This document shows, piece by piece, positions 2,114 through 5,117 of a DNA stretch of 21,451 nucleotides. Source of the stretch: a virus; IMG/VR virus record IMGVR_UViG_3300044641_005578, positions 1 through 21,451 of that record, one strand, 5' to 3'. The position numbers and the translations under genes are program-made. Position 1 is the stretch's first letter, and each line of letters opens with the position of its first letter. The notes beneath the pieces were generated by a model. It was not told the origin of the DNA. It was given only the letters and a program-made list of their open reading frames with translations, and made no database searches.

Positions 2114-2131
2114 TTTTTATCTTTTTGATGT

Positions 2132-2137
2132 TATAAT
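2132..2137 (+). promoter_or_regulatory. -10 box of the sHsp gene promoter
   Basis: A perfect TATAAT lies in an A+T-rich stretch between the last small gene and the heat-shock gene, about 56 bases upstream of its ATG. No convincing -35 box is seen at 16-18 bases upstream. Transcription from here would give a leader of roughly 50 bases that contains two hairpins. Confidence 0.5.
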
Positions 2138-2143
2138 TGGATA

Positions 2144-2191
2144 GAGCCGCCGATTGGGGCTCAACTAACTTATATCGTCTAAGGAGATATA
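2144..2191 (+). promoter_or_regulatory. structured leader with RBS-masking hairpin (candidate RNA thermometer)
   Basis: Two inverted repeats lie between the -10 box and the heat-shock start codon. The first is GAGCC (2144-2148) with GGCTC (2158-2162). The second is TATATC (2171-2176) with GATATA (2186-2191). The loop of the second contains AAGGA of the ribosome binding site AAGGAG (2181-2186), and the G at 2186 is already in the stem. The start codon follows three bases later. The second stem has five A-U pairs out of six, so it is weak and could open on warming. Heat-shock mRNAs with RBS-masking hairpins (ROSE, fourU types) are known; this one is inferred from the sequence only. Confidence 0.4.
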
Positions 2192-2193
2192 TT

Positions 2194-2688
2194 ATGGCAT
2201 CAGGCCACCCACATTCAATAAAATGGGAAGAGTCTTTCCCAAAGCAACCTCAAATAGCAACAATCAAAACAGTTATCCCATCTTTGGAACAAATTTTTGC
2301 TGACCAGTTTTTCTTGGGATTCCACGACCAGATTACACGTTGGAAGCATCTAACTGATGTAAAGAAAACAACGTCTTTCCCTCCTTATAATATTATTAAG
2401 GTTGATGATGACAACTACAGTGTTGAGCTAGCTGTAGCTGGATATTCAAAAAATGACATTGACATCACCGTTGACAACGACTTGTTAATTGTAAAAAGCA
2501 ATAAAGTTGAAAAGGGCAAAGAGGAATTTGTCCACCAAGGTATCGCTGAACGCACCTGGGAACAACAGTTTGTTCTTGGCGAATACATGAAAATCGCAAA
2601 CGCATCGCTAAAAGATGGACTACTTGTAATCACAGTTGAGCGTGAACTTCCTGAGGAATTAAAGCCTAAGAAAATCACAATCCTGTAG
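2194..2688 (+). CDS. small heat-shock protein, Hsp20/alpha-crystallin family
   Basis: The 164-residue product has an alpha-crystallin domain at about residues 61-151. This includes YSVELAVAGYSKNDIDI, a following LLIVKS strand and the family's hallmark A-x-L-K-D-G-L-L block (NASLKDGLLVITV, residues 136-148). A C-terminal I-x-I motif (I161-T-I163) serves oligomer assembly in this family. Such proteins bind unfolding proteins without ATP. Several marine cyanophages also carry an hsp20, where a role in virion protein folding has been proposed. The ATG at 2194 is chosen for its RBS AAGGAG; the upstream TTG at 2137 overlaps the -10 box. It has its own promoter and leader, so it may be controlled separately. 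Confidence 0.93.
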   Translation: MASGHPHSIKWEESFPKQPQIATIKTVIPSLEQIFADQFFLGFHDQITRWKHLTDVKKTTSFPPYNIIKVDDDNYSVELAVAGYSKNDIDITVDNDLLIVKSNKVEKGKEEFVHQGIAERTWEQQFVLGEYMKIANASLKDGLLVITVERELPEELKPKKITIL

Positions 2689-2960: not shown

Positions 2961-5117
2961 ATGAAACGCTTGCGCTTATTCGCAGCACTATCCGTTTTAA
3001 CATCCGCAGCCTTCTTTCCTTTACTATTCCAAACACCTGCCTACGCCTTAGGCACATGGACGGGAACAAATGCCAATATCAATGGCAACACAGTCCAGTT
3101 TGATTATCGCGGTGGTTCAGCCACTTATGTAGATACTGTTCCTGATGGCTCGACCGTCTCAGTAACAATTAATAATACGATTGCAAACTGTATTGGAAGT
3201 TGCACCCCTATTGCTGATACTTGGGATGTTTCAATTAATGGTCAAAGTTTTAGTGGTAATACAATAGAACAAACAAGCGTTGGTGCCACAGTCTCAGGGC
3301 AAGTAACAATTACTGCTTCAGGTATTGATAGAGGATTTTGGGGCGGTTGGTACGGGCCAATCTTTACTGTTTCTATAAGTTCTCCTACTCCAACCCCTTC
3401 GCCATCAAGTACGCCAGAACCAACAGCATCGCCAACCCCAACACAAACTTCAACACCTCAGCCTTCACCGACTTCATCGCCTACTCCCGAACCATCAGTT
3501 TCGACCGAGCCAAGTCCAACGCCATCTCCAACTCCGACACCCGTAGCTCCAGAGCCTTCACCTTCTCCAACGCCAGAGCCAACTCCTGTACCTTCCCCAG
3601 AGCCTTCTGTGCAGCCGAGTCCAACGCCTCAGCCGTCTCCTGAGCCATCCCCAAATCCTGAGCCATCGCCTACTCCTATTCCTAATCCAGAACCACAGCC
3701 TACACCACCGGCTGTTCCTGCTGGAGCATTAGTTATTACAGAAGGCTCAAGTGCATCTATAACAGCACCAACAGGAAAGCGCGTTGCTTCTGTTTTTGGT
3801 TTTTACGGTGACCCAGAAAACGGGTCTAGAGGCGTAGACGTTTCATCTACATTAACTTCAATGTTTACTGGAACAACTTCTTTTACAGTTGAATCCTCTA
3901 ATGAATTTGGAGACCCTGCTCCAGGAACAGTAAAAGTTTTAATTTTGCTAGTTACTTTTGAAGACGTACCTAATCCTGTTCCTGTCGAACCAACACCCAT
4001 ACCAACAGTCCCACCAGCAGTGGAACCAGAACCAATACCAACTCCAACACCTACAACTCCACCAGTGGACCCGGTCCCCACAAATCCAACTCCGTCACCT
4101 GAGCCAGCACCCGAACCTCAGCCAGAGCCTTCACCACAGCCTGAGCCTTCACCAGAGCCAACCCCAGAGCCTGAACCTGTTCCCGAGCCTGTTCCTGAAC
4201 CAAGTCCTGAGCCTTCTCCAGAGCCCGGACCTGAGCCCGAGCCTGTTCCAGAGCCAACTCCAGAGCCTTCGCCTGAGCCTGGTCCAGAGCCATCTACCGA
4301 CCCTGCCACTGGTACAGAAACGCCATCAGAACCCACAGAAGAGCTACCACCAGCGGTAGAAGTCGAAGAGCCACCCGTAGTAACCGAGGAGCCTCCTTTG
4401 GAAGTCGAACCACCCGTGGAAGAAGAAACACCACCAGTGTTACCAGAGCCAGAGCCAGAAAATCCGATAGAAGAATCATTCCCAGAGGTTACCATAACTG
4501 AAGAGGAAGCCGCCACTGCTGCGGTAGAAGATGCTCTATCTGACGGCAACCTTTCTGCTGCCGATGCTGATGCTGTTCTAGAAGCTTTGAACGCAGACGG
4601 AGAAGTTACCGCTGAAGAAGTGTCCGCCCTATCTGAGGCTCTATCTGAAGACGGCAAATTAACTAACGCTGAAAAAGAACTAGTTGCAGAAGCTTTGATT
4701 GAATCTGTAGCTCCTGGAGAAACTCTTACAAAAGAGCAGATTCAAGATGCTGGTATTGAGTATAAGGACCTTCCCGAAGAGACTCCTGTCGAGGTTAGGC
4801 AGGATGAAGAGGGTAACGAAGTTATAATTACAGCAGACGTAGCTGCGGCTCTAGTTCTTCTAGAGAACCCATCAGAATTAATTGGCGCAATATTTAGCGA
4901 CCCAGGTGAGGCACTACAAGCATTTGCAAGTATTGGTGCGGACATGTCCACTGAAGAGCGCGAAGAATCAACAAAAGCTGTTGTTGCAACAGTTATTGCA
5001 GCAGGTGCTGCAATAAACGCTGTTGGTGCTGCTGCAGGTGCTGCGAGTGGTTCAACGGGAGGAAGTACTGGAGGCGGAGGCGTCTCTGGACAATCAGGAT
5101 ATAGGAGAAAACCGTGA
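2961..5117 (+). CDS. secreted 718-aa protein with Pro-Glu/Pro-Ser repeats
   Basis: Residues 1-29 form a typical signal peptide ([11 protein letters not shown]..., ending TPAYA). A beta-rich domain follows at about 30-138, with two cysteines (NCIGSC) that could form a disulphide. Next come a Pro/Ser/Thr-rich linker (about 141-253), a second small beta-rich domain (about 254-336) and a Pro-Glu repeat region (about 336-507). Then comes an acidic helical region with two repeat-like units ([18 protein letters not shown] and [19 protein letters not shown]). A hydrophobic Ala-rich segment at about 672-690 and a Gly/Ser tail ending YRRKP close the protein. The shape is that of an exported or surface-anchored protein rather than an ordinary virion part. 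It precedes the lysis-type genes and overlaps the next start (GTGA). Possible roles are host-surface modification, adhesion or a receptor-binding spike; none can be chosen. Confidence 0.85.
3381..3720 (+). repeat. Pro/Ser/Thr codon repeats
   Basis: Low-complexity DNA made of short imperfect units such as CCTTCACC, CCAACGCC and GAGCC. It encodes a Pro-Ser-Thr-Pro linker (residues about 141-253) of the secreted 718-aa protein. The reverse strand reads open here because stops are rare in this composition. Confidence 0.7.
3964..4480 (+). repeat. Pro-Glu codon repeats
   Basis: Imperfect hexamer and 12-mer units (CCAGAGCCT, CCTGAGCCC, CCCGAGCCTGTT) encode PEP, PEPSPEP and VPEP repeats of the secreted protein. 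Recombination between units could change its length between relatives. Confidence 0.7.

Follow-up and report, generated by a model that had tools for sequence, protein, structure and literature searches.

The window analysed here, the whole stretch of 21,451 bases, is a single virus record. Because its capsid protein (~70% identical to those of the Streptomyces phages LuckySocke, Alone3 and BRock) and its terminase (55% identical to that of BRock) resemble Streptomyces phage proteins, the contig probably belongs to an actinobacterial-type phage whose host is an actinobacterium. On the plus strand, positions 2194-2688 encode a small heat-shock protein (Hsp20) of 164 aa, recognised by matches to PF00011 (E 3.4e-16) and phrog_432 (E 4.7e-36), and the closest solved structures to this protein are small heat-shock proteins, including the 'aggregation suppressing protein' 4zja. 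A small gene with PF24254 (DUF7455) lies directly 3′ of Hsp20 (2696-2944), followed at 2961-5117 by a gene whose 718-aa product begins with a signal-like N-terminus and contains long P-E/P-S/P-T repeats.

The Hsp20 leader, also on the plus strand, consists of two hairpins joined by a single-stranded linker. Hairpin 1 (2144-2162; GAGCC-G-CC-GATT-GG-GGCTC), delineated by sequence, RNA fold and covariation, is GC-rich, with a 5-bp lower stem, a bulged G (2149), a CC/GG step and a 4-nt loop, and is probably a static first hairpin. The linker AACTAACT (2163-2170), mostly similar among aligned relatives, leads into hairpin 2 (2171-2191; TATATC-G-TC-TAAG-GA-GATATA), the proposed thermosensor, which is A-U-rich and weak and was delineated by sequence, conservation and covariation; it carries a bulged G (2177) followed by TC, the loop TAAG and GA. 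The Shine-Dalgarno sequence (SD) AAGGAG (2181-2186), identified by sequence 7 nt upstream of the ATG at 2194, sits in the loop and 3′ arm of hairpin 2, where it is masked by pairing. Hairpin 2 can adopt two near-equal registers: in the main one G2177 is unpaired opposite the SD, and in the alternative it faces A2185 as a mismatch with UC paired to GG. The two hairpins are built alike, each having a lower stem, a bulged G, 2-3 bp and a short loop, so that hairpin 1 could pass for a GC-rich copy of hairpin 2.

A probable extended -10 promoter, TGTTATAAT (2129-2137, plus strand), was recognised from sequence 6 nt upstream of hairpin 1; it has no good -35 and is absent from the consensus-scan list. 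Of 55 distinct upstream sequences, 52 have a -10-like hexamer in a fixed slot ahead of hairpin 1, compared with 5.0% of random slots, and hairpin 1 therefore probably forms the 5′ end of the transcript. The position of TGTTATAAT suggests that transcription probably starts at about 2143.

Folding of the window sequence gave hairpin 1 an energy of -11.6 kcal/mol (z -3.25) and hairpin 2, in a 33-nt stretch, one of -4.6 kcal/mol (z -1.78), the latter equalled by 13 of 200 shuffles. Averaged over the SD, the unpaired probability was nearly flat from 5 to 50 °C, and since this temperature curve was uninformative, opening energies were used instead. On folding at several temperatures, as the original prediction had suggested, the computed cost of opening the SD in the window leader was 7.9 kcal/mol at 5 °C, 7.0 at 15 °C, 6.5 at 20 °C and 4.4 at 37 °C. 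However, the opening energy of ordinary gene starts likewise drops with temperature, and the falling cost is thus consistent with a thermometer without being proof of one. When the upstream part was shuffled, 79 of 500 sequences reached the cost at 20 °C; at 15 °C, opening was at least as costly for 5 of the window's 23 other gene starts as for that of Hsp20. Judged on the window sequence alone, the masking of the SD is not exceptional.

The case for an element beyond chance comes instead from comparison with relatives, namely from conservation, covariation and specificity for Hsp20. In the three nearest relatives (L001-L003) the leader is identical while the Hsp20 gene is already diverging, and in L098, whose Hsp20 is ~57% identical, hairpin 2 is preserved letter for letter, as is most of the linker, and the stem of hairpin 1 is altered on both sides. 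A scan for the 21 bases of hairpin 2 gave identical copies in 69 further viral contigs; including the window, 67 of the 70 sites precede an Hsp20 gene by phmmer and the remaining 3 are cut off by contig ends. All 25 dereplicated proteins encoded downstream match PF00011 and are 31-68% identical to the Hsp20 of the window, and a 21-base ribosome-binding stretch that is identical before such distant proteins indicates strong constraint.

Covariation was assessed for each hairpin in turn. Alignment of 49 distinct leaders from 68 sites (omitting L230, which is cut, and L246, which has no start), in which hairpin 2 is invariant by design of the search, showed that 7 of the 8 pairs of hairpin 1 have changed on both sides, and the two-hairpin structure scored 0.266 for covariation against 0.088 in shuffled alignments, a value reached by none of 500 shuffles. 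For hairpin 2, a second search pattern fixed only the core CGTCTAAGGAG and left the arms free; it recovered 36 new contigs with 32 of the sites before Hsp20 (31 by E-value, and L434 by its identical leader and first residues), and the four chance sites (L435, L437, L439 and L444) were dropped. In the resulting 14 distinct hairpin-2 sequences, the successive pairs going outward are formed in 14, 14, 14, 13, 11 and 7 sequences, corresponding to 91.3% of cells paired, and 6 of 9 pairs have changed on both sides. The covariation score of 0.354 compares with 0.106 in shuffles, none of 500 of which reached it, and falls to at most 0.058 when partners are slid by 1-3 columns, although the shuffle counts themselves ignore relatedness. 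By this comparison selection acts on the RNA structure of both hairpins, and hairpin 1, which covaries, belongs integrally to the element.

These results bear on several points of the original prediction, which had placed the ribosome-binding site in the loop and 3′ arm of a TATATC/GATATA hairpin, with a second hairpin upstream, within 2144-2194. The hairpins are present as described, and the reading of SD masking was largely right, the pairing being kept in relatives and only before Hsp20. It had also proposed a search for compensatory changes, which were found in both hairpins, and had named relatives without the pairing as evidence against the idea; the relatives examined keep it. Its caution that such a stem is easily obtained by chance was fair on folding alone, as the 79 of 500 shuffles attest, but does not hold against covariation that no shuffle matched.

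The element extends well beyond the relatives of the window. Among the matches listed in a protein-similarity search, in which the leader was not part of the query, we obtained 108 usable phage Hsp20 genes including that of the window and some near-duplicates. A bulged-G hairpin covering the SD lies directly upstream in 95 of these 108, compared with 15 of 279 other SD-bearing open reading frames (ORFs) in the same loci, for a descriptor that was written after seeing the data; a simple core pattern gave 92 of 108 against 8 of 279. Nine of the 13 genes missed by the descriptor (L281, L296, L301, L311, L319, L321, L325, L329 and L330) have the element before a small ORF of 69-75 aa immediately upstream of Hsp20, three (L290, L316 and L335) had a start wrongly called in our analysis, and in L009 the element precedes an upstream ATG. 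Two positives, L279 (wrong start) and L317 (small-ORF type), were scored on a sequence other than the true element, which was located later. In the nine small-ORF loci and L317, a ROSE-type hairpin precedes an ORF of 67-75 aa (e.g. MLHNINSAIDTFQG...) that terminates just ahead of Hsp20, an arrangement suggestive of a two-gene unit under one sensor.

Named isolates gave a similar picture. The classical ROSE core, T[CT]GC[TC] followed by an SD, was found in 24 of 25 isolates, the exception being the Hsp20 gene of Vibrio phage PWH3a-P1; this non-random sample comprises 15 of 25 'spread' rows and ten isolates taken from the best rows (HTVC008M, Melnitz-3, S-CRM01, P-SSM3, HTVC103P, Phosso, Mosig, P-SSM4, PWH3a-P1 and S-CAM8) and includes phages of Synechococcus, Prochlorococcus, Pelagibacter, Methylophilales and Sinorhizobium. 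Among the isolates L416-L476, most of those of cyanophage type have TATAAATA or TTAAATA-like sequences 58-80 nt upstream of the Hsp20 start. These lie a short way before hairpin 1, at a distance similar to that of the -10-like hexamer, and resemble a T4-type late promoter. Of 82 bacterial hsp20 ORFs from the same clade among the matches listed, 80 have an in-frame ATG preceded by a ROSE core. On these sequence comparisons, virtually every phage Hsp20 gene examined has a ROSE-like leader.

Searches with a covariance model of the phage leader (R1) addressed specificity. R1 produced a single match, the Hsp20 leader of L098, across 1.11 Mb from related phages, representing 100 of the 154 loci L032-L185 among the terminase and capsid matches listed, and each of 20 whole virus records contained one strong match. 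In one of these records, G008, a second match (17.8 bits) is weak and was set aside, as were weak matches in L203 (9117-9171, minus strand), L208 (8880-8924, minus strand) and L237 (2644-2722, plus strand). The element thus appears, across the DNA searched, to be specific to Hsp20 leaders. A phage-wide type of structured ribosome-binding site was considered and rejected, since R1 finds only the Hsp20 leader in the 1.11 Mb from 100 loci. In L325, a second R1 match (1849-1899; 25.2 bits) lies 3′ of Hsp20, ahead of an ORF of 101 aa that has an SD of its own, and folds into hairpin 1 only.

Of the known RNA thermometers, the ibpA leaders of Pseudomonas offer the closest comparison. As described in PMC3669281, their hairpin I is GC-rich and stays folded, and hairpin II, whose U(U/C)GCU is paired to the SD with a G bulged out, melts upon heating. 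The phage leader is similarly a ~60-nt leader of a small heat-shock gene with two hairpins, the first GC-rich and the second pairing the SD with an anti-SD strand that bears a bulged G. Stabilities are comparable, with 27-nt hairpin-2 stretches of the phages (29 distinct sequences) at a median of -4.0 kcal/mol (range -6.8 to -2.7) and the Pseudomonas hairpin given as -4.1 to -7.6 in the same paper (PMC3669281). In Pseudomonas, removal of the bulged G (delta-G39) locks expression off. Unlike Pseudomonas ibpA, the subfamily of the window occurs in phages, has a longer A-U lower stem and carries the core UCGUC in place of UYGCU, which moves the bulged G two bases further along the SD. The window therefore combines several ROSE features (an Hsp20 leader, a 3′-most hairpin that sequesters the SD with a bulged G opposite, and a stable upstream hairpin), whereas the U(U/C)GCU anti-SD motif is absent from it and from its subfamily. 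As UCGUC departs from the defining motif, we classify the element as a ROSE-like variant and not as a strict member of ROSE.

In Rfam scans the window gave no ROSE match. No element above threshold was found in it or in the Hsp20 leaders of relatives scanned with E-value limits, and the ROSE gathering score (43) was reached by no phage leader scanned, including those of 20 of the 25 named isolates. The family RF02523 (ROSE_3) has two hairpins in the same order and aligned over its full length to the leaders of L299, Melnitz-3 (L417) and DSL-LC03 (L469), with 26.2, 34.1 and 30.6 bits, respectively, against the gathering score of 43. R1 in turn matches, though weakly, many leaders of bacterial hsp20 genes (SAR11, Alteromonas and others), which are cellular genes, and the leaders of L413, L344 and L392 have the classical UYGCU core. 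Lambda cIII already provides an example of an RNA thermometer in a phage that governs access of the ribosome. It closes upon heating according to a section of PMC4166951, and it differs from the Hsp20 leader in using two alternative folds that close with heat, and in its gene and layout. The original prediction had invoked ROSE and fourU as known types, and the architecture, with a bulged G opposite the SD, is that of the short ROSE-like thermometers with two hairpins. FourU (RF01795), which likewise masks the SD of a heat-shock gene in a small hairpin, was rejected, because there is no UUUU opposite the SD in the 5′ arm and the window scored 12.1 bits against a gathering score of 60.

Based on these comparisons, we propose, with good confidence, that translation of the phage Hsp20 is under the control of its leader, acting as a short ROSE-like RNA thermometer with two hairpins. 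The mRNA would begin at about 2143, placing hairpin 1 at its 5′ end, where it would remain closed and aid the folding of hairpin 2. The latter would pair the SD with an anti-SD strand whose bulged G keeps the stem weak, so that ribosomes would be excluded from the SD in the cold, and upon warming hairpin 2 would open and Hsp20 would be made. We infer the transcript start, the melting of hairpin 2 and translation upon heating; by homology the leader is predicted to open with heat, and control by heat is likely.

An alternative that we regard as possible but less likely than not is autoregulation, in which the phage Hsp20 would bind its own leader and repress translation until denatured proteins titrate it away. 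Precedent is found in E. coli IbpA, which, in the portion of PMC10474464 concerned with it, binds its own leader and represses its own translation via the 5′ UTR, a self-repression that requires R93 and the aromatic position 34. Such autoregulation may also act together with heat melting. Pattern searches found the putative R93 equivalent (GIAxRxF) in 97 of 108 phage Hsp20s and an aromatic residue before PPY in 104, but the basic pair R97/K98, also needed in E. coli, in only 3, the window having EQQ. The hairpins might otherwise serve mRNA stability or general translational strength, as a 5′ stabiliser and a structured ribosome-binding site that sense nothing. A 5′-terminal hairpin can protect an mRNA, as stated in part of PMC3669281, and the predicted 5′ end carries hairpin 1; we consider this explanation improbable, however, since a general stabiliser would be expected before other genes too and the element is confined to Hsp20 leaders in the DNA searched, and covering the SD costs translation and yet is kept across Hsp20s only 31% identical. 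Similarly, the layout shared by hairpins 1 and 2 would suit an operator at which some other RNA-binding protein of phage or host binds both bulged-G hairpins and represses translation, but the lower-stem sequences are free to vary and the same layout occurs in phages of Actinobacteria, Cyanobacteria and SAR11, which makes a single shared dedicated protein unlikely and this model very improbable. That an A-U hairpin merely happens to cover the ribosome-binding site has a negligible probability, for although shuffled sequences can reach the masking of the window and folding alone could not reject it, covariation in both hairpins does so unless the alignments are wrong, and bulged-G SD hairpins are far more frequent before Hsp20 (95/108) than before other ORFs (15/279).

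Taken together, the Hsp20 leader is a real, selected RNA element that is specific to Hsp20, ROSE-like in architecture and widespread in phages. The original prediction knew of no established example in a phage-encoded small heat-shock gene, and in the open-access literature searched we likewise found no thermometer reported before a phage Hsp20; by word search, 'thermometer' is absent from the cyanophage Hsp20 papers checked. Hsp20 is a cyanophage core gene whose role is described as unsettled in a passage of PMC7674155, where host heat survival and capsid scaffolding are both suggested. That almost all phage Hsp20 genes have a sensor leader in front of them speaks for a chaperone kept in check until heat or protein damage releases it, and phages probably do restrain Hsp20 in this way. 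We suggest, with reasonable confidence, that a ROSE-like sensor leader accompanies phage Hsp20 genes almost universally, across promoter types and host phyla (Actinobacteria, Cyanobacteria, SAR11, Methylophilales and rhizobia), that phages therefore carry their own chaperone switch as a portable unit gated by heat or aggregation, and that the actinophage branch has evolved a second sensing core, UCGUCUAAGGAGA, in which the bulged G occupies a new register. According to an excerpt of PMC10474464, RNA control of this kind prevails in alpha- and gammaproteobacteria and not in Gram-positives; our findings would carry ROSE-type control over from bacteria into viruses, among them actinobacterial-type phages. 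The role of Hsp20 thereby becomes testable in culturable phages such as P-SSM4, S-RIM2 and Mosig.
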